In this document: piece after piece, positions 32,240 through 46,293 of the stretch
Layout of the letters: the number at the start of each line of letters is the position of its first letter
How positions within the stretch are numbered: the stretch's first letter is position 1
Source of the DNA: an uncultured Erythrobacter sp.
Lineage (GTDB): Bacteria > Pseudomonadota > Alphaproteobacteria > Sphingomonadales > Sphingomonadaceae
Direction: 5' to 3'
DNA length: 64,000 bases
Assembly (NCBI GenBank): GCA_947500645.1
Contig: CANMSD010000002.1
Location: forward strand, 372,001-436,000
Program-made: the position numbers and the translations under genes
Notes under the pieces: generated by a model
What the model saw: the letters and a program-made list of their open reading frames with translations, nothing else
Databases searched by the model: none
What the model was told of the DNA's origin: nothing

Positions 32240-32313
32240 CTAAGCCGTGCCCGCCTAATGCACCGGGACGAACCGCGCAATATGAAAAAAGAAACCTATT
32301 TGGCACTTTTTTA

Positions 32314-32341
32314 TTGACATTGTCACGCTCTTTGGTTAGAA
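32314..32341 (+). promoter_or_regulatory. Predicted promoter of the GTA-like operon: TTGACA-N16-TTAGAA
   Basis: Read directly; AT-rich upstream segment with AAAAAAG...CTTTTTT inverted repeat (32285-32312). Confidence 0.55.
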
Positions 32342-32374
32342 GAACTCAACATCGCGATAGTGTGAGTCGGGAGC

Positions 32375-32398
32375 GGGGCTGAAACAGAGTTCAGCCTT
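32375..32398 (+). promoter_or_regulatory. Leader hairpin GGCTGAA-acagag-TTCAGCC in the predicted GTA 5' UTR
   Basis: 7-bp perfect stem at 32377-32383/32390-32396. Confidence 0.5.
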
Positions 32399-32467
32399 GC
32401 GACCAGGCATTCTCTCTTTCGGTCTCACCGCGTTGTTCTTTTCAACTCGACCGAACGGAGACAAGCG

Positions 32468-32926
32468 ATGGCGGAAATGCCGCGCAAATGCGCAACCAAA
32501 AGCAAACCACGAAAACGTGTCAGTCCACGCTGGCGCGATCGCTTCATCGAAGAACTTGCTCAGTCCTCGAACGTCAGTCGTTCTGCTGATCTTGCAGGAA
32601 TCACGACCAGTGTTGCATATCGCACTCGGACCAACGAGCCGGAATTTGCACGACGCTGGCTAGCGGCGCTTTGGGAAGGATACGAGCACCTGGAATTGGA
32701 AGTCTTGCGGCGCCTGCGAGAAGGCGATCAGCAGGCAGGAGATACATCGAAATACGACTTCGCCAACGCCATCCGGCTTCTCAACGCACACCGTGACAGT
32801 GCCAGCAAGGCTCAAGCAGAGCAAAGAAACGTAAGTGCTGCTGAAATCCGCGCTTCGATCGATCGCAAAGTCGAAGAAATTCGTTCGCGGATTCAGCAGG
32901 AAAAGAGCCGTAAGGCAGGCATCTAG
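32468..32926 (+). CDS. GTA/phage terminase small subunit-like protein (gp1 position)
   Basis: HTH-like RDRFIEELAQSSNVSRSADLAGITTSVAYRTR; immediately upstream of terminase large subunit. Confidence 0.75.
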   Translation: MAEMPRKCATKSKPRKRVSPRWRDRFIEELAQSSNVSRSADLAGITTSVAYRTRTNEPEFARRWLAALWEGYEHLELEVLRRLREGDQQAGDTSKYDFANAIRLLNAHRDSASKAQAEQRNVSAAEIRASIDRKVEEIRSRIQQEKSRKAGI

Positions 32927-34251
32927 TGAAAGAGCCGAACGACTGGCTGGCGGAAGCGCCGGCGGCAGCTCGCGAAGAACTGATCCGCGCTTTGAATGAC
33001 GAGGAGCGTGCAGAATTCGACTATCATTGGCGTATGTTTGCCCGGAAGGCGCAGCTGCCTCCTGAAGGCCAATGGCGAATCTGGCTCATCCTGGCCGGAC
33101 GCGGATTTGGGAAGACTCGTGCCGGGTCCGAGTGGGTGCGTTCAATTGCTGAAAGCAATCCGCAGGCGCGGATCGCCCTGATTTCCGGTTCACTGGCCGA
33201 GGCACGCGCTGTCATGGTTGAAGGTGAAAGTGGAATAATCTCGTGTTGTCCGCCAGAGCGACGGCCCATTTTCGAGCCGTCATTGCGGCGTTTGCGGTTT
33301 CCCAATGGGTCCCAAGCGTTGCTCTACTCGGCGGCAGAACCTGAATTGCTTAGAGGCCCTCAGCATTCGCACGCCTGGTGTGACGAAATTGGCAAGTGGC
33401 CGCTCGCCCATGAACGCGCCACGAGATGTTGGGACAATTTGCTTATGGGCCTTAGGCTTGGAGCAGATCCGCGAGTTGCCGTGACGACGACACCGAAAAG
33501 CGTTCCGCTGGTCATGCGACTGCTCGATCAGGAAGAGTCAGGCGCGACCGCAGTAGCGAGAGGTTCGACATACGATAATTCGGGCAATCTCCCGCAGCGG
33601 TTCCTGGCCGCTATAGAAGATGAGTTCGCCGGAAGCCTACAGGCACGCCAGGAAATTGGCGGTGAGTTGCTGACCGATGTGGAAGGCGCCTTATGGGACC
33701 GTACACTGCTTGAGCGAGCTCGCGAGCGTGCAGATAGGCCTGCTGATTCGAGGATGGTAGTAGCCGTTGATCCACCAAGCTCGGCCAAGGGCGATGCGTG
33801 CGGAATTGTGGTCGTGGCCCTTGGGATTGACGGTATCGGTCGTGTCTTGGCCGATTGCTCGGTCGAGAAAGCCAGCCCAGAAAAATGGGCTAGGCAAGTT
33901 GCCGCTGCTGCGACCGAATGGGGTGCAGACCGCGTGGTCGCAGAAGCCAATCAGGGCGGCGCCATGGTGGAGAGCGTCTTGCGCGCCGCCAGCAGCGATC
34001 TGCCGATCAAGCTGGTTCACGCCAGCCGATCAAAGGTGGCGCGGGCCGAACCCGTCGCTGCGCTATACGAAACTGCAAGAGTGAAGCATTGCGGGCACTT
34101 CCCGCATCTCGAAGATCAATTATGCGGCCTTAAGGCAGGCGGCGAATATGTCGGCCCAGGTCGCAGCCCGGACCGAGCCGACGCGCTTGTTTGGGCACTT
34201 ACTGAACTGATGCTCGGTCGTGCACGCAGACCGCGCGTGCTGCCCATCTGA
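32926..34251 (+). CDS. Terminase large subunit (RcGTA gp2-like)
   Basis: Walker A LILAGRGFGKTRAGSEWVR; nuclease-domain-like VVAVDPPSSAKGDACGIVVV. Confidence 0.95.
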   Translation: MKEPNDWLAEAPAAAREELIRALNDEERAEFDYHWRMFARKAQLPPEGQWRIWLILAGRGFGKTRAGSEWVRSIAESNPQARIALISGSLAEARAVMVEGESGIISCCPPERRPIFEPSLRRLRFPNGSQALLYSAAEPELLRGPQHSHAWCDEIGKWPLAHERATRCWDNLLMGLRLGADPRVAVTTTPKSVPLVMRLLDQEESGATAVARGSTYDNSGNLPQRFLAAIEDEFAGSLQARQEIGGELLTDVEGALWDRTLLERARERADRPADSRMVVAVDPPSSAKGDACGIVVVALGIDGIGRVLADCSVEKASPEKWARQVAAAATEWGADRVVAEANQGGAMVESVLRAASSDLPIKLVHASRSKVARAEPVAALYETARVKHCGHFPHLEDQLCGLKAGGEYVGPGRSPDRADALVWALTELMLGRARRPRVLPI

Positions 34252-34268
34252 ATCCAAAAGGAATTTTC

Positions 34269-35426
34269 ATGGCATTGCTAGAAACGATCGCCGCTGCCTT
34301 CAAAGGCAGCGCGACTGCTCGTGTGCCGCTCGCACCGAGCTTCATCTCCACCTGGACTCCGGCCTATGAGGCGTCCGGTAACTCGCGAAACTACGACTAT
34401 CAAAGGGCCATTCGCGAAGGTTTTCTGGCGAACCCCATCGCTCAGCGAGCTGTCAGAATCGTCGCAGAGGGAGTGGGACAATCGCCGATCTCATCAAACG
34501 ATGATGAACTCAAAAATTTGGTAACCGCAACGAGTGCCGGCCAATCACTAGTCGAGACAATCACTGCCCATGTCGTGCTTCACGGCAACAGCTTCGTTCA
34601 AATCATCAAGGACGGCGCTGGTAGTCCTGTGGAATTGTTCGCGCTGCGCCCTGACCGCGTAAAAATCCTCTCGGGGTCTGATGGCTGGCCCTGCGCCTAT
34701 GAATATAGAGCGGGCGATCACCCGTCGCGTATTGCAGCAGAAGACGAAAATGGATGGCCCAGCGTCATCCATATCAAAGCGATGCATCCAGTCGAAGATC
34801 ACTACGGGGCAGGCTCGCTTGCTGCTGCACATGAAGCAATTGCCATTCACAATGCAGCAGCTGAGTGGAACCGCACGCTTCTGGAGAATGCAGCTCGTCC
34901 TTCCGGTGCGTTGGTTTACGATGCTGGCGAAGGAGCGGGCCTCTCGGCGGATCAATTCGATCGCCTCAAGGGCGAGCTCGCGACGGCATTTTCGGGCTCG
35001 ATCAATGCCGGACGCCCAATGCTCCTAGACGGCGGCCTGAAGTGGCAGAGCATGGCACTCTCTCCAGCCGACATGGATTTCGCCACACTAAAGAGTTCTG
35101 CGGCGAGAGACATAGCACTCGCCTTCGGCGTCCCACCGATGCTCTTGGGCCTGCCCGGCGACAACACATACTCAAACTATCGCGAAGCCAATCGCGCGCT
35201 GTGGCGACTGACCCTTCTTCCTCTCGCCGAGAAACTGTTCTCGGCCTTGAGCGAAGGGCTTTCGCCGTGGTTCGCAGAGGGTGAACTCAGCGTCGACTTG
35301 GATCGAATTCCAGCTTTGTCGGAAGATCGCGAACGTCTTTGGAAGCAGGTGTCAGATGCGGAATTCCTGACGCGAGCCGAGAAGCGCGACATGCTCGGCC
35401 TCCCCCCTGAGGAGACAGCACGATGA
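34269..35426 (+). CDS. Phage portal protein (RcGTA gp3-like)
   Basis: AFGVPPMLLGLPGDNTYSNYREANRALWRLTLLPL (HK97 portal). Confidence 0.95.
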   Translation: MALLETIAAAFKGSATARVPLAPSFISTWTPAYEASGNSRNYDYQRAIREGFLANPIAQRAVRIVAEGVGQSPISSNDDELKNLVTATSAGQSLVETITAHVVLHGNSFVQIIKDGAGSPVELFALRPDRVKILSGSDGWPCAYEYRAGDHPSRIAAEDENGWPSVIHIKAMHPVEDHYGAGSLAAAHEAIAIHNAAAEWNRTLLENAARPSGALVYDAGEGAGLSADQFDRLKGELATAFSGSINAGRPMLLDGGLKWQSMALSPADMDFATLKSSAARDIALAFGVPPMLLGLPGDNTYSNYREANRALWRLTLLPLAEKLFSALSEGLSPWFAEGELSVDLDRIPALSEDRERLWKQVSDAEFLTRAEKRDMLGLPPEETAR

Positions 35427-35731
35427 GCCGTGAAGACATGCTTGCCAGCCTTATGGTTCAGGCAAATGAGGAGGGTGCAGACATCGTCACCTTGCGCGCA
35501 ATGATTGAGGAGGCAAGCGAGCTCGCCGCCGAGAAGGTTTTGGATCGACTTGGCCTAGGTGACGCTAGGGCCGAGGGTGATCTCGGAGAATTGCGCGAGC
35601 TCCTCAAAGCATGGCGAGACGCCAAGACAAGCGCTTGGAAAGCCTTTATCGGTTGGGTCATCCGCGCAGCGCTCGCGCTGATTCTGATCGGCATCGCCGT
35701 TCGTCTTGGCGCGTCGGATCTATTGTCATGA
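35423..35731 (+). CDS. Small membrane protein in the g3.5 position
   Basis: C-terminal TM FIGWVIRAALALILIGIAVRLG; ATGA overlaps both sides. Confidence 0.7.
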   Translation: MSREDMLASLMVQANEEGADIVTLRAMIEEASELAAEKVLDRLGLGDARAEGDLGELRELLKAWRDAKTSAWKAFIGWVIRAALALILIGIAVRLGASDLLS

Positions 35732-36132
35732 CTAAGCAAACCATCCGATTTGCCGGATATGCAGGTCTATTCGATATCCCAGATGCAGCGCAGGATACGA
35801 TCCGACGCGGCGCGTTTGAGCAGACCGTCGCGAGCCGTAGCGAACCCTTGCCGCTTCTCTGGCAGCATCGTCCCGATCAGAAGATCGGAGTGATCGAGGA
35901 GATATCGGAGGATAATCGCGGCCTGCGCGTCATCGCCCGGATCGACGCTAATAGCTCCCGCGGTGCAAAGATGCTCAAAGATGGCACGGTCGACGGCTTG
36001 AGCTTTGGCTACCGGGCGCGCGAATATCGAAACTCAGACAAAGGCCGCGAGCTGCTTGCTATCGATCTGTTCGAAGTGAGCCTCGTCACACACCCACTTC
36101 AACACGGCGCGCGAGTGCACTTCGTCGCCTAG
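35728..36132 (+). CDS. HK97-family prohead protease (gp4-like)
   Basis: FAGYAGLFDIPDAAQDTIRRGAF...LSFGYRAREY...DLFEVSLVTHPL. Confidence 0.92.
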   Translation: MTKQTIRFAGYAGLFDIPDAAQDTIRRGAFEQTVASRSEPLPLLWQHRPDQKIGVIEEISEDNRGLRVIARIDANSSRGAKMLKDGTVDGLSFGYRAREYRNSDKGRELLAIDLFEVSLVTHPLQHGARVHFVA

Positions 36133-36158
36133 CCAACCCAAAACCCAATTTCCCAAAT

Positions 36159-36183
36159 GGCCGCCAGCGGGGCGGTCTTTTTT
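36159..36183 (+). terminator. Intrinsic-terminator-like hairpin between protease and capsid genes
   Basis: GGCCGCC-agcgg-GGCGGTC then TTTTTT. Confidence 0.7.
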
Positions 36184-36210
36184 ATGCTCAACAGAAAGGT
36201 TGCATGCCCC

Positions 36211-37359
36211 ATGGAAAGCACTCCCGTCCCTACTCCCAAACCAGCCGAGCAGCTTGAAGAAAGCTTCGATATTGTCGCGCGCCAAGATCAAGCTGAAGCT
36301 GAAATCAAAGGCCTTCGCGGCGACGTTGACGAAGTAAAAGCTCGTCTCGACAAGGTTTCCCGCGCAGCGTCGCGTCCAGCAATTGGCGGTGGAACCGCAT
36401 CAAGCGAAGTCAAAGGCTTTGTCGACGGCTATCTGCGCCGTGGCAATGAAAGCGAAATCAAATCGATCAGCGGCGCTGTACCGTCAGATGGTGGCTACGC
36501 AGTACCGCGTGAAATCGACGCGCTCATCGCCAGCGAACTCGCGGAGATCAGTCCAATTCGCAGCATCGCCCAGGTGGTCCAGACCGGCAGCGCAGGTTAT
36601 CGCAAGCTGGTATCGACCGGCGGCACCGCGTCGGGCTGGGTTAGCGAAACCGCTGCACGCCCTGAAACTGATGCGCCAGAATTCGCCGAGATCGCGCCAC
36701 CTACGGGAGATCTTTACGCCAATCCAGCGGCCAGCCAATCGATGCTGGATGATGCCGGTTTCAATCTCGAGGCTTGGCTCTCCAGCGAAATTGCGAGCGA
36801 ATTTGCTCGTGCAGAAGGTGCAGCCTTCGTTTCTGGCACAGGCACGGATCAGCCTGAGGGCTTCCTAACGGCGCCCAATGGCACCGGTGATGATGGCGTT
36901 CGCGCGTTCGGCACGCTCCAATATGTCGGATCGGGCGATGCCAATGGCTTCGACACTGCTCCCGACGCGAAGCTGATCGACCTCATTCACACTATGAAGT
37001 CGGGTCACCGCCAAGGTGCTAGCTTCGTGATGAACTCGGCCACTTTAGCCGAAGTGCGCAAGCTCAAAACCGCTGATGGTGCGTTTCTGTGGCAACCAGG
37101 AATGATCGAAGGTCAGCCTGATCGCCTGCTGGGCTATCCAGTGGTCGAGGCTGAAGACATGCCAGACATTGCATCAGGCACATTCCCGATCGCTTTCGGC
37201 AACTTCCGCCACGGCTATCTGATCGCCGAACGCAGCGCCACTCAAGTCCTGCGCGATCCGTTCACAAACAAGCCGTTCGTCCACTTCTACGCCACCAAAC
37301 GAGTCGGCGGCAAAGTGCTCGACAGCAACGCGATCAAACTCCTGAAGATCGAGGCCTGA
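36211..37359 (+). CDS. Major capsid protein, HK97 fold (gp5-like)
   Basis: Coiled-coil delta domain then PSDGGYAVPREIDALIASELAEISPIRSIAQVV. Confidence 0.95.
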   Translation: MESTPVPTPKPAEQLEESFDIVARQDQAEAEIKGLRGDVDEVKARLDKVSRAASRPAIGGGTASSEVKGFVDGYLRRGNESEIKSISGAVPSDGGYAVPREIDALIASELAEISPIRSIAQVVQTGSAGYRKLVSTGGTASGWVSETAARPETDAPEFAEIAPPTGDLYANPAASQSMLDDAGFNLEAWLSSEIASEFARAEGAAFVSGTGTDQPEGFLTAPNGTGDDGVRAFGTLQYVGSGDANGFDTAPDAKLIDLIHTMKSGHRQGASFVMNSATLAEVRKLKTADGAFLWQPGMIEGQPDRLLGYPVVEAEDMPDIASGTFPIAFGNFRHGYLIAERSATQVLRDPFTNKPFVHFYATKRVGGKVLDSNAIKLLKIEA

Positions 37360-37409
37360 TCCTCTCCCGGCGAGGTTGAGTTAGCCCCTGACTCCCTCGT
37401 CGGCACCCC

Positions 37410-37461
37410 GCACCCGCGCCGCGCTAGGCCATCCTCCCGCCTGATGCAGCGGCGCGGGTGC
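37410..37461. repeat. 13-bp perfect GC-rich inverted repeat downstream of the capsid gene
   Basis: GCACCCGCGCCGC (37410-37422) / GCGGCGCGGGTGC (37449-37461). Confidence 0.85.
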
Positions 37462-37492
37462 ACCCCTTGTTCTTGATTATTGGGAGACCGCA

Positions 37493-38038
37493 ATGCAGCG
37501 GACTATTGTTATTGCGGCAAACCTTGGTGGAGCCGCACTTGATGATCTGAAGGCTTGGCTAGGCATCACCCGTCCCAATGAGGATAAGATGCTCGTCGAC
37601 CTGCTGCGCACAAGCTCAGCCATGTGCGAAGCCTTCATCGGCCAAAGTCCGGTTGAAGTGACCTTGGAAGAGAGTCTGCCGGTAGAGGCTGCTCGCTCCC
37701 GAATGGCTTCGCGCCCAGTTCAGACGATCATGTCGATCGAAGCGCTTAGCGACGATGGCACCCGAAGCACAGTAGACACTGACCGGTACAGCATCGAAGT
37801 TGATGGATCTGGTTCCGCTTGGGTAACGATCAAGTCATCGCTCGACGCGCGCGCCATCATTGTGCGAGCAACCTGCGGATTGGCACAAGATTGGAACGAC
37901 GTTCCCTCATCACTACGCCATGGGATCATACGTCTTGCAGCCTATTATTATCGTGATCGCGACCATGAAGGCACACTTGAACCGCCAGCGAGCGTAAGTG
38001 CCCTGTGGCGCCCATGGCGCGACATTAGTCTCACATGA
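37493..38038 (+). CDS. Head-tail connector (gp6-like)
   Basis: LDDLKAWLGITRPNEDKMLVDLLRTSSAMCEAFIGQ; ...HGIIRLAAYYYRDRD. Confidence 0.88.
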   Translation: MQRTIVIAANLGGAALDDLKAWLGITRPNEDKMLVDLLRTSSAMCEAFIGQSPVEVTLEESLPVEAARSRMASRPVQTIMSIEALSDDGTRSTVDTDRYSIEVDGSGSAWVTIKSSLDARAIIVRATCGLAQDWNDVPSSLRHGIIRLAAYYYRDRDHEGTLEPPASVSALWRPWRDISLT

Positions 38039-38202
38039 TCGCTCGCCCTCAGAACCCCGCCAGCGACCTCATCCAGGGCCTCAGTTCTCGAGCACGCATC
38101 AAGGGCGAGCGGCGAGCAATTGGCTTGCGCGAACAAAAGCGAGCGAACGGGCATTTTTGGCGATCGGCAAACGCACTCTGGCCAGAACTTACGGTGAATT
38201 GA
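38035..38202 (+). CDS. 55-aa ORF in the gp7 (head-tail adaptor) position; absent from supplied ORF track
   Basis: ATGA-coupled to gp6; MIARPQNPASDLIQGLSSRARIKGERRAIGLREQKRANGHFWRSANALWPELTVN*; stops 4 nt before the next ATG. Confidence 0.6.
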   Translation: MIARPQNPASDLIQGLSSRARIKGERRAIGLREQKRANGHFWRSANALWPELTVN

Positions 38203-38206
38203 CTCT

Positions 38207-38593
38207 ATGGAAAATCTCTTGCGCACCGCGCTCATCGAGTGGCTGCGAAACGATCCGGCTCTGGGCAGCATAAACGCGATCGAGGAGGAAAGCCCTCTTG
38301 GTTCTAGTCAGCCCTGGCTTGGAATTGCCGCAAGCGGCTCGACAGATTGGGGCACCAAGGACAGGCGCGGCCGCGAAGTTCGCATCGCTCTCGAATTGGA
38401 AAGCCGAACCGATGATCCTGCCGCCGATGCCGCATTAGTTGAAACGATCGAGCAGCGAATCTCCAGCCTGCCGCGCGAACAGTCTGGCTTCGAGGTAGCC
38501 GCCTCACGCTTTCTTCGCGCGCGAAGCGAACGGCGTCCAAACAACCTGCGCGGCACATTGCTCGAATATCGATTTCGCCTCTTAAACCTCTGA
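38207..38593 (+). CDS. DUF3168 tail completion/terminator protein (gp8-like)
   Basis: LRTALIEWLRNDPALGSIN...YRFRLLNL; position. Confidence 0.85.
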   Translation: MENLLRTALIEWLRNDPALGSINAIEEESPLGSSQPWLGIAASGSTDWGTKDRRGREVRIALELESRTDDPAADAALVETIEQRISSLPREQSGFEVAASRFLRARSERRPNNLRGTLLEYRFRLLNL

Positions 38594-38606
38594 CGGAGTA
38601 ACCTTC

Positions 38607-39014
38607 ATGCCTGCACAAAATGGCTCTGCATTTCTGCTCAAGATCGGCGACGGTGGATCGCCTCTAACCTACGATACAGTCGCCGGTCTCAGGACCACAC
38701 AAATGTCCATCAACGGGGATACGGTCGTCGTCACTCACAAGGATTCGGGCGGTTGGCGCGATCTTCTTTCAGGCGCTGGAACACGGTCCGTGTCGGTTAG
38801 CGCGGCCGGGATATTCCTAGGCAGTACAGCAGAAGCCTCGGTGCGTGCTCATGCTCTGGCTGGAACCATCGATGACTATGAACTGTCCTTTGAGGACGGT
38901 GAAAAGCTGCGTGGACGATTTCTTGTCCAACGTCTGGACTATTCCGGCGATTTCAATGGTGAGCGCAACTATACGATGCAGCTCGAAAGCTCAGGACCGG
39001 TAGTGCCCGCATGA
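38607..39014 (+). CDS. Major tail (tube) protein (gp9-like)
   Basis: MPAQNGSAFLLKIGDGGSPLTYDTVAGLRTTQMSINGDTVVVTHKDSGGWRDLL. Confidence 0.92.
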   Translation: MPAQNGSAFLLKIGDGGSPLTYDTVAGLRTTQMSINGDTVVVTHKDSGGWRDLLSGAGTRSVSVSAAGIFLGSTAEASVRAHALAGTIDDYELSFEDGEKLRGRFLVQRLDYSGDFNGERNYTMQLESSGPVVPA

Positions 39015-39325
39015 GCGCGACCGCCAACTCGTTGAGGGGCGAGGCCGAAATAGTCATCGACGGCAGACCATTTGTTCTACGTCCGAGTTTCGAAGCCCTG
39101 GTTCTAGCGGAGAAAGAACTCGGTTCGCTTTTTGCACTGGTCGAGAGAGCGTCCGAGGGCGCGCTAACAATTTCGGAAATGACGGGCCTGGTTTGGCATT
39201 GCCTTCCCGATGACAGGCGGCCTCCTCGTGAAGAGGTGGGGCGGAGCATTCTTTCGATCGGCCTGCTTGAGGCCGCGAAGCCTGTCAGGTCGATTTTGGC
39301 GCAAGTCCTGAAAGGGCAAAAGTGA
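39011..39325 (+). CDS. GTA gp10-like tail chaperone
   Basis: NSLRGEAEIVIDGRPFVLRPSFEALVLAEKELG. Confidence 0.85.
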   Translation: MSATANSLRGEAEIVIDGRPFVLRPSFEALVLAEKELGSLFALVERASEGALTISEMTGLVWHCLPDDRRPPREEVGRSILSIGLLEAAKPVRSILAQVLKGQK

Positions 39326-39519
39326 CCCAGCAATTCCGGGAAAGCATCCCGGAACTCTGCGGCATTGCCTCAGCCTTCTTGCGTTGGTCCCCGACTGAAT
39401 TCTGGCAGGCCACACCAGAAGAGCTGGCCATGGCGCTCCACAGCCCAAACTCAGATGCAACGGCATCGCCCACGCGCGAGCAGATCGCACAGATGATGGA
39501 AGATGATCGTCATGGATGA
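39322..39519 (+). CDS. Tail assembly chaperone (gp10.1-like); GTG start overlapping the gp10 stop
   Basis: IASAFLRWSPTEFWQATPEELAMAL. Confidence 0.85.
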   Translation: MTQQFRESIPELCGIASAFLRWSPTEFWQATPEELAMALHSPNSDATASPTREQIAQMMEDDRHG

Positions 39520-40081
39520 CAATATTGAAGAACTCGTCGTCGACGTGCGCGCCACAACCGATGGCTTCACCAGCGATCTTGAGAGCATGCGAGGCGCACT
39601 AGACACGTCTCTGCTCGATGGGTTCGAAAAGGCCGGTAACGTGCTCGAGCGAGGGCTATTATCTGCCTTACGCAATGGCAGCCTCGGTTTCGATGACCTC
39701 AAGAAGACAGCGCTAAGCGTGCTCGATCAAATTGCTTCCCACGCGATCAAAGCCGGGATCGGTTCGCTGTTTGGCGGCTCCTCGTCCGGGTTTGGTGACA
39801 TTGTCGGACAATCACTCGGCGCATTGCTCGGCCTGCCTGGCCGCGCGACTGGCGGCCCCGTGAGTCCGGGAAGCAGCTATTTGGTCGGCGAACGCGGCCC
39901 GGAAGTGTTCGTTCCGACCAGCTCAGGACGGATCGAACCCAATGGCAGCGACTCACAATCTCGCGATGTCCGGGTTGCCATCCAGGTGGCATCGCCGCGC
40001 GGGACCTCGGCGCCAGTCGCTATGCGCCGTTCATCACGGCAAGTCGCCAGCGCCGTTCGGCGTGCACTTCAACAAACATAA
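39503..40081 (+). CDS. Tape measure protein (gp11-like)
   Basis: ATTDGFTSDLESMRGAL...ATGGPVSPGSSYLVGERGPEVFVPTSSGRI. Confidence 0.88.
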   Translation: MIVMDDNIEELVVDVRATTDGFTSDLESMRGALDTSLLDGFEKAGNVLERGLLSALRNGSLGFDDLKKTALSVLDQIASHAIKAGIGSLFGGSSSGFGDIVGQSLGALLGLPGRATGGPVSPGSSYLVGERGPEVFVPTSSGRIEPNGSDSQSRDVRVAIQVASPRGTSAPVAMRRSSRQVASAVRRALQQT

Positions 40082-40093
40082 AGGGCGAGCACA

Positions 40094-42418
40094 ATGGCAT
40101 TCTGGTTGGCACGCGAGCGGCGCGGGCAGGAATCGAGCTATCTCCAACGGTTCGACCCGCGGTTCTGGACGATTGATTTTCCCCGTCCTGCGATGGGATC
40201 GATCGTCACCACGTCGGCTGATAGCTTCAAAGTGGACGTCGAACTGCATCATGAAGGTGAGTTGGTCGGACTGATCTGGGACAGTGTCAATGCGTTCGAT
40301 CACCCCTTGCTCGCGTACGAGACAAGCCGCGATTACTCTCACACGACCCTCAGTTTCCGTTGGCAGTCCAGCGGGGTGGCGACGCTGGACCAGGCCAATG
40401 GCCCAACTCTTACGATCGAGGGCCGGGACGCGTCAGGCCAGCCGAGAACTTGGTATGTCAGACTTTGGAACTACGCCAACGGCTCACCAACGAATGCGAT
40501 CATTACTCTGCCGTTTTCCAACCTCGAAAGCGGCTGGGTCTTGCCTGGTGAACAAGTATGGCCGTCCGATATCGACCGAATGTTCATTTCGATCGCCGCG
40601 CCAAACTTCGTTTCTCGAAGCAGTGAACCACTTGCCTCTCGTCTGAATGGAAGCGTTACCGTTTCAGGCATCGCTTGCGACGGAAAGAATTCGATGCTCG
40701 AATTGGGCGACATTCGACTGCCGCCCCATCAAGAGCGAATGGCGACCGCGTATGACGACGCCTACAATCAGACACCTGCACGCCTTCTTCGGAATATCGT
40801 TGGCCTAGGGTATCGAACCGAGATCTTGCATTATGTCGGGATGAGTCACTTCATGCAGCTTGAAGCTGATGGAGGCGGCGAACTGAAAGTGATCGATGGC
40901 GGGCCGCTTAGTGTGCCTGCAGAGATATGGCACGAGAGCTTCTTCGAACATTGCAGCAAGAACGGCTTCGAAGCGATTTCATCAATCTCATACGAGTTAT
41001 TCGACGCGTATTGCCCGGAGGCCTGGAAGCAGCGCACCGCGAGCGGTGCGCAAGCGCTTACTGGCTGGGTGCCACCTTCCACATTGCTTTCACCGGCCAA
41101 CGCCGACGCGATGGCATGGCTGCAAGCGAGCGCAGTCAATTTCATCGAACTTATGCAAGACGCGCAACTGCCCGTCCGATTCCAGATCGGGGAACCCTGG
41201 TGGTGGATCACGCCAGCGGGCGAGATATGCCTTTATGATGATGCCGCAAGGACAGAATTTGGCGGTAGTCCACCGACGATCTCCGATGTCCGGGCCCCTC
41301 TGAATGACAGTCAAAAGGCACTGCTTGATGAAGCCGGTGCATTGCTTGCCCAATCCACTGCAGACTTGAGCCAAGCTGTACGCAATGCAGCAACCGGCAG
41401 CGCGGAGATCTTGCTACTCGCGTTCACGCCGACAATTCTCGATGCGGAAACTCCCGAGCTCTATCGAGCAAACCTGCCCATTGGCTGGGCTCATCCCGCC
41501 TTCGACCGGTTGCAACTGGAGGATTATGACTGGTTGACCACTGGCGCTGACGCCGATCGCCGCCGAGCCTATGCCTTGGTCGATACAAGGTTGGGATACC
41601 CCGTTGACCAGCAAGACTATCTATCAGGCTTCGTCCTGCTCGAGACAAATGCCGAGGTGATGTGGCCCCTAATCGACATGGGGCTCGATGAAGCAAAAGA
41701 GCGTGGCGTCGAACGCCGGTTCGTCTGGGCCCTGCCGCAGGTCGCTCGCGATGGATACACACGCCTCCCCAAAAACCACGAGGAACCCATGCAATCATTT
41801 GATGATGTTCTATACCCGTTTGCCCTCGGGCGAGACACGGCGGTCGCACCGGAATTCTCCACGTCAGTTGCGGTCATGGCCTCCGGCCACGAACGGCGGA
41901 ATTCTCTTTGGAGCGATGCCCGAATTCATTTCGATGTCGGACCAGGTATTCGCTCGGAAAGTGAACTGGCAGAACTGATTGCGTTCTTCCGGGCGCGCCG
42001 TGGAGCTGCTCGAGGGTTCAGAATATCTGACCCGTTCGACAACAGTTCGAATGGCATGACGGGCAGTCCAGGAACTTCAGATCAGCTGATTGGCATGGGT
42101 GATGGGCTCAAAGCAGACTTCCAACTCGTGAAGACCTACGGCACTGGCGATGACCAACAGAAACGCATTATCACCAGACCACGCCCAGAGACGGTTAAGA
42201 TCAGCGTTGGAGACTACGAAAGCACTGACTGGACTCTAAGCGAAAAGGGCGTCGTACAGTTTGCGCAAGCCCCTGCAGCTGGAGATGAAGTGCGCGCTGG
42301 CTTTCTGTTCGATGTACCCGTCCGTTTCGCAGACGATCGCATAGACGTCTCAGCTGTCAATTTCGAAGCCGGTGAAGCGCCCAGTATTTCGCTGATCGAA
42401 ATTCGCGAGGCATCGTAG
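40094..42418 (+). CDS. DUF2460/TIGR02217-type distal tail protein with about 560-aa N-terminal extension (gp12-like)
   Basis: C-terminal RRGAARGFRISDPFDNSS...GDGLKADFQLVKTYG...VRFADDRIDVSAVNFEAGEAPSISLIEIR. Confidence 0.88.
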   Translation: MAFWLARERRGQESSYLQRFDPRFWTIDFPRPAMGSIVTTSADSFKVDVELHHEGELVGLIWDSVNAFDHPLLAYETSRDYSHTTLSFRWQSSGVATLDQANGPTLTIEGRDASGQPRTWYVRLWNYANGSPTNAIITLPFSNLESGWVLPGEQVWPSDIDRMFISIAAPNFVSRSSEPLASRLNGSVTVSGIACDGKNSMLELGDIRLPPHQERMATAYDDAYNQTPARLLRNIVGLGYRTEILHYVGMSHFMQLEADGGGELKVIDGGPLSVPAEIWHESFFEHCSKNGFEAISSISYELFDAYCPEAWKQRTASGAQALTGWVPPSTLLSPANADAMAWLQASAVNFIELMQDAQLPVRFQIGEPWWWITPAGEICLYDDAARTEFGGSPPTISDVRAPLNDSQKALLDEAGALLAQSTADLSQAVRNAATGSAEILLLAFTPTILDAETPELYRANLPIGWAHPAFDRLQLEDYDWLTTGADADRRRAYALVDTRLGYPVDQQDYLSGFVLLETNAEVMWPLIDMGLDEAKERGVERRFVWALPQVARDGYTRLPKNHEEPMQSFDDVLYPFALGRDTAVAPEFSTSVAVMASGHERRNSLWSDARIHFDVGPGIRSESELAELIAFFRARRGAARGFRISDPFDNSSNGMTGSPGTSDQLIGMGDGLKADFQLVKTYGTGDDQQKRIITRPRPETVKISVGDYESTDWTLSEKGVVQFAQAPAAGDEVRAGFLFDVPVRFADDRIDVSAVNFEAGEAPSISLIEIREAS

Positions 42419-43227
42419 TGCGTGTCTTTTTCGACCGAGAGCTGGACAATGTAGCCACATTTTGGCGCGTGTTTCGGCGTGACGGTGTCACGCTCGGCTT
42501 CACCAGCCATGATCGCGACTTGTACTTCTCTGGCATCGTACACCAATCGGCACCAGGAATGGTGCCGTCCGCGATCCGGCGCACAATAAATGTAGATGAT
42601 GATGACGCTGAGGTCGAAGGTGCGCTAAGCCATGATTCAATTCGAGCCGACGAGCTTGCGACAGGTCTCTACGACGCAGCATCGATAGAAATCGGAGCGG
42701 TGGATTGGGAAGCGCTCGATCACCATGTTTTCTACAATGGAAAACTCGGCACGATTGAAGACGACAACCACAGTTTTTCAGCCCAATTGAAGTCAGCAAA
42801 AGCAATTCTGGAAGAAGATCTGGTACCGCGGACAAGCCCGACCTGCCGGGCAGAGTTCTGTGGCAAGGGATGCTCTCTATCGGCTGCGACGTTTACCTCG
42901 CTTCGATCGGTGTCAGCGCTAGATCTTGATGCCAACTCAGTGCAATTTCCCGGCATCACCATGGATGACTTCATCGATGGCCAGCTACGTTTTCTGGATG
43001 GCCCTCAAACGGGCCTCACCTTCGGGATTGTGGCCAGTGGCGCAGAGGGACTGACACTTGATCGCCCCCTCGTCGCTGGGACCGCAGTCGGTACAATGGT
43101 AGAGCTACGAGAAGGCTGCGATCATACATTTGCCTCGTGCCAAGGTCGTTTCGGCAATGCCGAGAACTTTCGCGGTGAGCCGTTCTTGCCCGGCAATGAC
43201 CTTCTTGCTCGTTACGGCAAGTCATAG
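42418..43227 (+). CDS. DUF2163/TIGR02218 baseplate hub protein (gp13-like)
   Basis: FWRVFRRDGVTLGFTSHDRDLYFSGIVHQSAPGMVPSAI; LREGCDHTFASCQGRFGNAENFRGEPFLPGNDLLARYG. Confidence 0.95.
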   Translation: MRVFFDRELDNVATFWRVFRRDGVTLGFTSHDRDLYFSGIVHQSAPGMVPSAIRRTINVDDDDAEVEGALSHDSIRADELATGLYDAASIEIGAVDWEALDHHVFYNGKLGTIEDDNHSFSAQLKSAKAILEEDLVPRTSPTCRAEFCGKGCSLSAATFTSLRSVSALDLDANSVQFPGITMDDFIDGQLRFLDGPQTGLTFGIVASGAEGLTLDRPLVAGTAVGTMVELREGCDHTFASCQGRFGNAENFRGEPFLPGNDLLARYGKS

Positions 43228-43230
43228 ATA

Positions 43231-43650
43231 GTGAAAAGGGACGTTGAGCTGCTGGTAGCAGCGGCGACAAGTTTGATCGGCACACCCTTTCGACTTCATG
43301 GGCGCGATCCTAGCTCGGGCGTTGACTGTGTTGGAATGCTGGACTGGTGCTTGCGCGAGATCGGCCAACGGCCATCACTGCCGCGCGGGTATCGCTTACG
43401 CAATTCAAGCGTTGATATGTGGTTTGAGTGCGCGAAATCTTGCGGTTTGCGGCCTGTCGATGGCGCAATCCGTGTGGGGGACATAATTCTCGTGTCGCCG
43501 TCGCCCGGCCAATTCCATTTGATGATCGCTGAGGCGAGCGACACTTTCATTCACGCACATGCCGGGCTGAAGAAAGTGGTCAGGGAGAGGGGCCCCTTGG
43601 CTTCAGGGCCAACCAAGCACTGGCGCCTAGCACCCGGATTTCAGGACTAG
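43231..43650 (+). CDS. NlpC/P60 cell-wall peptidase (gp14-like)
   Basis: LIGTPFRLHGRDPSSGVDCVGMLDW; FHLMIAEASDTFIHAHAG. Confidence 0.92.
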   Translation: MKRDVELLVAAATSLIGTPFRLHGRDPSSGVDCVGMLDWCLREIGQRPSLPRGYRLRNSSVDMWFECAKSCGLRPVDGAIRVGDIILVSPSPGQFHLMIAEASDTFIHAHAGLKKVVRERGPLASGPTKHWRLAPGFQD

Positions 43651-43655
43651 AACAA

Positions 43656-45827
43656 ATGGCAACCATTATTTTGACGGCCGTCGGATCAGCTCTCGGCGGG
43701 CCTATCGGTAGCACAATTGGTGCAATCATCGGACAGCAGGTCGACCAAGCGATATTTGGTAGCGGAACACGGGAGGGGCCGAGGCTAAAAGAGCTATCGG
43801 TGACGACGTCCAGTTACGGCCAGCCGATGGCGCGAGTATTCGGACGAATGCGTGTGCCAGGTACGATCATTTGGTCGACTGACCTTATTGAAAGCTCTGA
43901 GAAAAGTGGTGGGGGAAAGGGAAAGCCATCGACAAAGACCTACAGCTATTCCGCATCATTCGCCGTCGCCCTTAGCAGTTCGCCCATCTCATCTCTGGGA
44001 AGAATTTGGGCCGACGGTGAGCTTCTTAGAGGTGCTGCCGGCGACTTGAAGGCAGAGGGGGGACTCCGCATTTACAATGGGCGTGGGGATGATCCCGTAG
44101 ACCCGCTCGTTGCAGCCGATAAAGGTGGCAACGCTCTGGCATTTCGCGATTGCGCATACGTCGTCTTCGAAAATCTTCAGCTGGCCGATTTCGGCAATCG
44201 GATTCCGGCCCTTACTTTCGAAATCATGGGCGAGGACAATGCTTCCGTTCATCTCGCGGATGTAGTTCCGAGCGCAGATCATTCGAGTACAGCCTCTTCA
44301 CTACCACACTTGCGAGGCTTCGCGGACGAAGGAGGCCCGTTATCGTCAACCTTGTCCGTGATCGGGCAGGTATTTCCGATCGTCTGCGCTACGGACGCCA
44401 GTGATCTGCGCGTCGCTCAGATTGAGAATGCCAGCGCTGACGTGACCGCACTGCCAGAGAAGCTGGTTGATAGGGAACAGGAGGAGAAGGAGCATCGCCG
44501 AGTTGAGAGGGTCGGCAAAGAACCACTCGCCATGCGATATTACGATGAGAGCCGAGACTATCAACCTGGTGTTCAGCGCGCGATCGGCGGTCGTTCGAAT
44601 GGACGCGAAAGAATACTGGATATGCCAGGCACTCTTCTAGCAAACGGCGCGCGGGCGATTGCCAATGAAACGGCCCAACGCGCAAGGTGGTACCAGGAGC
44701 AAGTTTCATGGCGAATGGCTGAGCTTGATCCAATGGTCAAACCAGGCGAGATTGTCCAAATCCCCGGCAAGCTAGGGAAATGGCTAGTCCGGAGATGGGA
44801 ATGGCTTGATCGCGGAGTGGAATTGGACCTCGAGCGGATTCCGCCAGAATTCAACAACACACCGCTTGAAGAACTGGCTTTTGATAACGCACCACAAGAT
44901 CTACTTCCAGGCTCGACCATACTGAACGTATTCGAGGTCCCACCTGACCTTGCTGCATCCCAATCGGATCCGATCATTCTCGCGGCAACTTCTTCCGAAA
45001 ATTCTGCATGGCGCGGTGCGGCTCTCTATGTCGAACAGGGTCAAGGACTTATTCCAATTGCTTCATCAAACCGCTTGCGCTCAATCACGGGCTACCTCGC
45101 TCAAGACTTAGCGGGTTCCTCATCGACATATTTGCAGACCCAGGCCTCGCTCTTGGTGCAACTGCCCGCTCACGACCTCACGTTCACAGAAACAGATATC
45201 TCAGGCCTCGCGCTTGGCGCGAACAGGCTCTTGGTTGGCGCTGAAGTGTTGCAATTTCTTGAGGCTGAGCCGCTAGGTGGCGGCTTGTGGAGGCTTAGCG
45301 GGCTGCTACGCGGGCGCGGTGGAACTGAAAATACAGCAATCGAAGGTCACGTCGCCGGCACTTCAGTGGCTCTGATTGATGAGCGCCTGACCGTGCTGGA
45401 CGCCTCGCTGGTTCAATCGAACGCTGCAACTCGCATTGGTGCGATCGGACTTGGCGACATCGATCCAGTTTTCGCAAGTCTCCAAAATGCTGGCATTTCT
45501 AGACGCCCGTTGTGTCCAGTCCATCCTCGAGTTCTTGAAGCACCAGATGGCACTTGGGAATTCTGTTGGACGAGGCGCGCGCGCGGCCAATGGCTATGGG
45601 AAGATGATGTCGATGTCCCGCTGGTAGAGGAAGTGGAATCGTATGTGATCGGTTACGGGCCGATCGAAGAGCCCTTCGCGACTTGGTCAGTTGCGACAAC
45701 ACAGATCGCGCTTTCCGAAGCTGAGCGAAACGCATTGCTTGCCAACTATGGCTCCGGCGACCTGTGGGTCAAGCAAGTCGGAACCTTTGCAAATTCGCCA
45801 GCGACCTTGATCGCACAGATTACGTAA
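43656..45827 (+). CDS. GTA gp15-like tail tip/host-specificity protein, short form
   Basis: ALGGPIGSTIGAIIGQQVDQAIFG...YGQPMARVFGRMRVPGTIIWSTDL; Phage-tail_3-like body. Confidence 0.9.
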   Translation: MATIILTAVGSALGGPIGSTIGAIIGQQVDQAIFGSGTREGPRLKELSVTTSSYGQPMARVFGRMRVPGTIIWSTDLIESSEKSGGGKGKPSTKTYSYSASFAVALSSSPISSLGRIWADGELLRGAAGDLKAEGGLRIYNGRGDDPVDPLVAADKGGNALAFRDCAYVVFENLQLADFGNRIPALTFEIMGEDNASVHLADVVPSADHSSTASSLPHLRGFADEGGPLSSTLSVIGQVFPIVCATDASDLRVAQIENASADVTALPEKLVDREQEEKEHRRVERVGKEPLAMRYYDESRDYQPGVQRAIGGRSNGRERILDMPGTLLANGARAIANETAQRARWYQEQVSWRMAELDPMVKPGEIVQIPGKLGKWLVRRWEWLDRGVELDLERIPPEFNNTPLEELAFDNAPQDLLPGSTILNVFEVPPDLAASQSDPIILAATSSENSAWRGAALYVEQGQGLIPIASSNRLRSITGYLAQDLAGSSSTYLQTQASLLVQLPAHDLTFTETDISGLALGANRLLVGAEVLQFLEAEPLGGGLWRLSGLLRGRGGTENTAIEGHVAGTSVALIDERLTVLDASLVQSNAATRIGAIGLGDIDPVFASLQNAGISRRPLCPVHPRVLEAPDGTWEFCWTRRARGQWLWEDDVDVPLVEEVESYVIGYGPIEEPFATWSVATTQIALSEAERNALLANYGSGDLWVKQVGTFANSPATLIAQIT

Positions 45828-45843
45828 ACGCTAAGGAAGCATC

Positions 45844-46293
45844 ATGCCCGCACCAACCGACTTTCCATCAAGCACCTCGAACTTTTCTCTGCCATTGCTC
45901 TTCGCAGGACAATCGCAAAAAGAGTTCTTTGTGAACGAAGCTATCGCTTTGATCGACGCCCACCTTCATCGGACTGTAGTTTCTTCGCAGCCAACACCGC
46001 CAGCAATCCCCAACGAAGGTGAAGCATATCGCGTGACCAGTGGCGTCGACGATTGGTCCGGGCAAGACGATACCATTGCCGTGTTTATAGGAGGGACCTG
46101 GCGCTTCCAGTCACCGGTTTCTGGTATGACGATCTTTGACCGAAACGCAGGCCAGTTCCTGCACTTTTCAACGACATGGTCTTCGGCTGCTGAGCCAGCG
46201 TTGCCGCAAGGGGGGGCAGTGGTCGACTCAGAGGCGAGGACCGCAATCGAAGCGTTGATCCAAGCGCTCAAAGTTGTCGGAATTCTGATCTGA
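45844..46293 (+). CDS. DUF2793 protein at the end of the GTA cluster
   Basis: LPLLFAGQSQKEFFVNEAIALIDAHLHRTV. Confidence 0.88.
   Translation: MPAPTDFPSSTSNFSLPLLFAGQSQKEFFVNEAIALIDAHLHRTVVSSQPTPPAIPNEGEAYRVTSGVDDWSGQDDTIAVFIGGTWRFQSPVSGMTIFDRNAGQFLHFSTTWSSAAEPALPQGGAVVDSEARTAIEALIQALKVVGILI

Follow-up and report, generated by a model that had tools for sequence, protein, structure and literature searches.

A gene transfer agent-like cluster in an uncultured Erythrobacter sp., its altered tail proteins and a recurrent deletion junction

Is the run of phage-like head and tail genes in this chromosome a gene transfer agent (GTA) inherited with its host, and, if so, why do many close relatives lack it? 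The run lies at positions 32,314-46,293 of a 64,000-nucleotide stretch from an uncultured Erythrobacter sp. (GCA_947500645.1, contig CANMSD010000002.1, positions 372,001-436,000 of the forward strand; hereafter the window), where an earlier note had described a complete structural cluster, gp1 to gp15, of the type of RcGTA, the GTA of Rhodobacter capsulatus. The open reading frame (ORF) table and family scans revealed an RcGTA-type head-tail set (g1-g6 and g8-g15) with intact frames. Very probably, the locus encodes the structural proteins of a Sphingomonadales RcGTA-like GTA, inherited with the chromosome and served by one promoter, in which gp12 domains resembling a phage N4 sheath and PgaB most likely bind glycans. 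The cluster would be transcribed from that single dedicated promoter and, by analogy with RcGTA, may build a particle with a small head and a short tail that packages host DNA and passes it to kin.

Gene content, site and selection

The structural genes (32,468-46,293) are contiguous, all on the + strand and in RcGTA order. At the small-terminase position, gp1 (32468..32926) matched no Pfam or NCBIfam family and was assigned from its position, intact ORF and homologues in relatives. It is followed by gp2, the large terminase TerL (32926..34251; Terminase_6N 1.4e-15, Terminase_6C 1e-20), the gp3 portal (34269..35426; PF04860 4e-71, TIGR01537 above cut-off), gp3.5, a DUF6127 protein (35423..35731; PF19622 7e-26), the gp4 prohead protease (35713..36132; PF04586 4e-26) and the gp5 HK97 major capsid protein (36157..37359; PF05065 5e-88), whose best-matching phage relatives are 46% identical and whose gene is present in one copy in the genome (estimated completeness 99.98%). 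Then come the gp6 head-tail connector (37493..38038; TIGR02215 3e-19, above cut-off), which is not succeeded by g7, the gp8 tail completion protein (38207..38593; PF11367 8e-12), the gp9 tail tube protein (38607..39014; PF06199 5e-43), gp10 of the GTA-gp10 family (39011..39325; PF11836 1e-18), the gp10.1 tail assembly chaperone (39322..39513; PF09550 5e-11) and gp11, a short tape measure protein (39503..40081) placed by position and by a weak match to NF058675 RcGTA_tape (26.8 bits, cut-off 220 bits). The remaining genes encode gp12, a three-domain distal tail fusion (40094..42418; PF23844 6e-88, PF23845 2e-166, PF09343 2e-72), the gp13 baseplate hub (42418..43227; PF09931 4e-37, PF09356 2e-22, RcGTA hub 6tba_7A 2e-27), the gp14 NlpC/P60 peptidase (43231..43650), assigned by position with PF00877 just below its cut-off (1.7e-4) and TIGR02219 also below, the short megatron-like gp15 without the peripheral TIM domain (43656..45827; aligned with the ends of the RcGTA megatron) and a DUF2793 protein (45844..46293; PF10983 4e-19). 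Among GTA-specific models, PF11836 (GTA-gp10), TIGR02217 (Rcc01695) and PF23666 (Rcc01698_C) exceeded their curated cut-offs, whereas the NF048004 megatron model (346.8 of 800 bits) and the tape model stayed under theirs; the search with family models, which had been proposed as a check, identified most of the head-tail genes.

Gene order, HK97 head, short tail and single upstream promoter resemble those of RcGTA (PMC7296036), and so do the distal tail protein domain, the hub, the peptidase and the megatron ends. In contrast with RcGTA, however, gp12 has 774 amino acids (aa) instead of 210, gp15 has 723 aa and no peripheral domain instead of 1304 aa, and both g7 and GTA_TIM are lacking. The claim of a complete gp1-gp15 set therefore holds for the order and intactness of the genes, but not for g7, the expected ~210-aa gp12 or a gp15 with its peripheral domain. 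The absence of g7 is consistent with a published Sphingomonadales survey, according to which this gene is missing or replaced in many RcGTA-like clusters (PMC9765227). Such clusters were already known in this same bacterial order, the Sphingomonadales (Kogay et al., PMC6821227, PMC9765227).

The cluster occupies a constant site in relatives of the same and of other genera, with DivK-ACP-SPT-YqaA before it and OmpA after it, and its gene order is shared with theirs. Its immediate flanks in the window are housekeeping genes, YqaA/VTT on one side and OmpA on the other, and no integrase, replication or immunity gene lies beside it, which agrees with what the earlier note had read there. Distances of eleven concatenated GTA proteins followed those of the unlinked SecDF (Mantel r 0.66, 0/2000 permutations). 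The ratio of nonsynonymous to synonymous substitution rates (dN/dS), calculated gene by gene in six close pairs, was mostly 0.02-0.3 in five of them and reached ~0.4 in the sixth, and it was below 1 for all genes and pairs with a finite estimate. The structural genes are under purifying selection, so that the selection for function suggested from the intact frames alone was confirmed, and the phylogeny and dN/dS checks proposed with it both pointed the same way. These observations support a GTA kept by vertical descent and no prophage.

The fused gp12 and the shortened gp15

The 774-aa gp12 joins an NCTSP_N sheath domain (residues 17-205), a TIM-barrel_NCTSP domain (210-555) and an RcGTA distal tail domain (570-771). 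By sequence, the part added to gp12 corresponds to the N4 sheath proteins gp65 and gp64 (~30% identity to gp64), the distal domain matches RcGTA Rcc01695, and residues 14-558 are homologous to phi92 gp142 and Acinetobacter phage Loki gp17 (~32% identity). In the AlphaFold model, which is confident (mean predicted local distance difference test score 85), the fold of the TIM barrel matched N4 gp64 (E 4e-23) and, more weakly, the C-terminal domain of PgaB (E ~1e-8), a structure solved with glucosamine or N-acetylglucosamine (GlcNAc). The latter domain, which acts in poly-GlcNAc processing, shares the TIM-barrel fold (PDB 4p7n; TM-score 0.57 on the target) at 13% identity; the likeness is one of fold.

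Both N4-type sheath domains, NCTSP_N and TIM-barrel_NCTSP, are present in gp12 (N4 gp65/gp64: PDB 9lc0, 9yf4; PMC12633501). However, the podovirus N4 sheathes its tail with gp64 and gp65 as separate proteins forming a heterodimer, whereas gp12 is one polypeptide in which these domains are joined to a distal tail protein of the siphovirus type. phi92 gp142 and Loki gp17 also differ from gp12 in being separate tail proteins, and in Loki the gp17 gene follows the distal tail gene as an unfused neighbour. Programmed read-through of gp12 was considered and rejected: the in-frame stops in relatives turned out to be terminal stops that the search had included, with the exception of one broken gene.

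The 723-aa gp15 aligned with residues 1-212 and 1023-1246 of the RcGTA megatron, with no alignment between them, and has a Phage-tail_3 stretch at 231-383. The peripheral domain of the RcGTA megatron comprises residues 230-744 (PMC7296036). Because only the megatron ends align, with the Phage-tail_3 stretch between, this domain is missing from gp15. We surveyed 240 genomes over the class and 301 Sphingomonadales genomes. Class-wide, GTA_TIM was found in 24 genomes and NCTSP-TIM in three; among the Sphingomonadales, no genome had GTA_TIM over the cut-off and 168 had a gp12 match, full-length in most cases. The NCTSP-TIM gp12 and GTA_TIM gp15 architectures did not overlap in the sampled genomes.

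N4 gp65 is reported to be a receptor-binding sheath protein (PMC12633501, PMC12892993), and gp64 has been grouped with predicted poly-GlcNAc deacetylases (PMC8594841; PMC12633501). On this basis, we infer that a glycan on the recipient's cell surface or in its biofilm is what gp12 recognises and perhaps also trims, with the N4-gp65-like sheath domain and the PgaB-like TIM barrel most likely responsible for binding. In RcGTA, the matching recognition job may fall to the peripheral domain of gp15. The gp12 fusion represents a concrete candidate for recipient recognition by sphingomonad GTAs that is distinct from RcGTA.

Two further sequences carry related domains. A genome with another family code (f28, 'same class'; G160, L004) has a 919-aa NCTSP-TIM open frame, so the domain is not limited to the Sphingomonadales sample. 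A human stool scaffold with the unverified label 'Bacteriophage sp.' (MT840053.1), which is 47% identical to the N-terminal part of gp12, may be a GTA fragment.

Losses at the site and the recurrent junction

gp12 was missing in 12 of 24 sampled same-genus genomes. Sporadic presence in close relatives, which had been named beforehand as a sign against a GTA, is therefore literally what was observed, but the sites show deletion and the absences are losses. The homologous site was read in 14 relatives without the GTA, of which 12 belong to the same genus and two to other genera. Twelve of these sites were in-place scars, where promoter and gp1 are followed by varying remnants of terL or other genes and then usually by DUF2793, while the remaining two (G446 and G476) had no GTA sequence left. 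Such in-place scars and emptied sites indicate loss and not phage mobility. On the SecDF tree of 40 genomes, GTA presence and absence needs at least 12 changes.

Six of the 14 sites have one and the same junction, in which terL (...GPQHSHA) runs at identical nucleotide spacing into the AGQAQKE stretch of DUF2793, so that codon 150 of terL meets codon 20 of DUF2793. The homologous breakpoints in the window are at 33373-33375, immediately 5' of a Walker-B-like CDE, and at 45901-45903. A pattern search, which detects this exact spacing only and is biased to young scars, identified the junction in 17 of the 301 genomes, from seven genera (L256-L272; junction near 1521); the reversed pattern had no match in the same 301 genomes. 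In a quick tree of gp1 and the TerL N-domain, where the placement of the long-branch rows G303 and G504 is unsure, the junction trait needs 14 changes, at least eight of which are forced by well-supported branches.

The same breakpoints could also result if recombination, perhaps with the GTA itself as the vehicle, had spread one old deletion allele, in place of many independent deletions. One fixed register would be a simple account of identical breakpoints, a scar of ~1.5 kb fits a GTA particle whereas the 14-kb cluster may not, and at the junction GC is followed by T in 9 of 17 scars versus 5 of 69 intact genes. However, the similarity of the flanks near the junction was not higher among scars than between scars and intact genes, even within 12 nucleotides, and this comparison disfavours an imported deletion allele. 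Moreover, in the pairs G383/L117, G460/L114 and G447/G526 identity to the intact sister extends to both breakpoints, G447 and the intact G526 have in common a private QFSHA codon four codons from the junction, and in some genomes the junction codons match local alleles. Spread of a single allele thus appears rather unlikely. Since local identity to the intact sister continues to the breakpoints and scar flanks are not specially alike, we favour repeated in-place deletion. Extended homology at the two breakpoints was tried as its cause, and none was found in the joining register.

Five sister comparisons of the TerL N-domain gave 13 nonsynonymous and 61 synonymous changes on scar branches, similar to the 23 and 51, respectively, on intact branches; one genome with a different junction had six nonsynonymous and two synonymous changes. 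The similar counts on scar and intact branches point to either very recent deletions or retained function. We tentatively propose, at not quite an even chance, that GTA-carrying Erythrobacteraceae repeatedly turn into non-producers via one preferred, nucleotide-precise deletion of ~12.7 kb, after which the promoter, gp1 and the TerL N-domain are still constrained. If true, this would imply either a built-in switch, with deletion preferred at this site, or a non-producer allele carried by the GTA, and in both cases the scars would be a direct molecular record of 'cheaters' emerging in a public-goods system. Another relative (G146, L189) has lost nearly all GTA genes and retains gp1 and an intact, full-length TerL of 441 aa.

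The persistence of GTAs despite the death of producers is an open question; GTA loss and 'cheaters' are under discussion (PMC10883770), and GTA-less 'cheater' lineages have so far been mainly theory. With losses at one site, readable scars and many identical breakpoints, it becomes possible to measure how fast non-producers arise, how old they are and how they spread. In the literature available to us, which did not include Viswanathan et al. 2017, we found no description of the gp12 fusion, of the absent gp15 domain or of the recurrent deletion. The 2017 study reportedly covers this Sphingomonadales cluster as an 'ancient prophage'.

Promoter and candidate regulator and lysis genes

The GTA promoter (32293..32339, + strand) consists of a half-palindrome, AACC-N5-GG(TT), and the core TTGACATTGTCACGCTCTTTGGTTAG at 32314-32339. 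The element reads TTGACAT(T/C)GT(C/G)ACGCTCTTTGGTTA, and position 32314, given from the outset as the start of the cluster, is exactly the first base of TTGACA. It was near-invariant in the 15 aligned GTA-containing relatives, although synonymous sites are saturated there, and was mostly retained in eight GTA-deleted relatives. The motif model had a single match in the window; no second copy was present there or at the loci of the DUF6456 and holin-family genes described below.

The response regulators CtrA (9009) and DivK (29505) were found at the positions and with the identities assigned in the earlier note, which had brought them up as parts of a circuit known to control GTA production in some alphaproteobacteria. 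However, no CtrA-type TTAA-N7-TTAA site occurs anywhere in the window, and the nearness of the two genes is no evidence for regulation. A search for a gafA-like activator and a holin elsewhere in the genome, also proposed there, did reveal candidates on another contig. One is a single DUF6456 gene (C3:707531), divergent from a helix-turn-helix (HTH) regulator; we take DUF6456 to be a marker of GafZ, in agreement with the Caulobacter control match in the same search. The other is a single GTA-holin-family gene (GTA_holin_3TM; C3:698579), ~9 kb away. Caulobacter GafZ is described as the counterpart of GafA's C-terminal portion (PMC11150451). The DUF6456 gene and its divergent HTH regulator (G000:C3:706747-707920) adjoin SecDF in 40 of 40 genomes regardless of GTA. 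The holin-family gene (G000:C3:698549-699004) adjoins aroQ-accB-accC, also in GTA-less relatives, and possibly has a different role.

Several points weigh against a working GTA with a glycan-binding gp12. First, particle production, DNA packaging and transfer are here inferred from the genes. Second, the DUF6456 and holin-family genes were present in 12/12 GTA-containing and 12/12 GTA-less same-genus genomes; their link to the GTA is therefore unproven, and their co-occurrence was dropped as support. Third, no endolysin was identified, although the GH108 search used for it was silent in its controls as well and is thus uninformative. Finally, in profile comparison the TIM barrel of gp12 and GTA_TIM of gp15 showed no homology. 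For this reason we speak of replacement and abandoned the idea that the gp15 TIM domain had been relocated into gp12; that the gp12 barrel now does what GTA_TIM does is a guess about function.

The cluster could also be a GTA conserved in sequence that no longer makes DNA-carrying particles, its structural proteins being kept for another function such as tailocin-like killing. No lysis gene or dedicated activator is tied to the cluster, and deleted relatives retain the promoter, gp1 and the TerL N-domain, as this would allow; but capsid, portal, protease and TerL are intact and constrained although a tailocin could do without them, and we consider this explanation improbable. A defective or ordinary prophage resembling a GTA is more improbable still. 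In its favour, every gene is phage-derived, presence within the genus is patchy and IMG/VR files many such clusters as 'viral' contigs. Yet these contigs, at ~4-17 kb, are roughly as long as the cluster, and none of the best 80 matches is a longer phage genome; moreover, no integrase, replication or immunity gene adjoins the locus, the site is identical in several genera, the cluster tracks a host-gene tree and deletion at the site accounts for the absences. A vertically inherited GTA agrees best with these data.

Immediately 3' of ctrA, the window encodes a protein with two LysM domains and a cell-wall-hydrolase domain (PF07486; 9848-10879), which from its domains is a possible candidate for a lysis enzyme.

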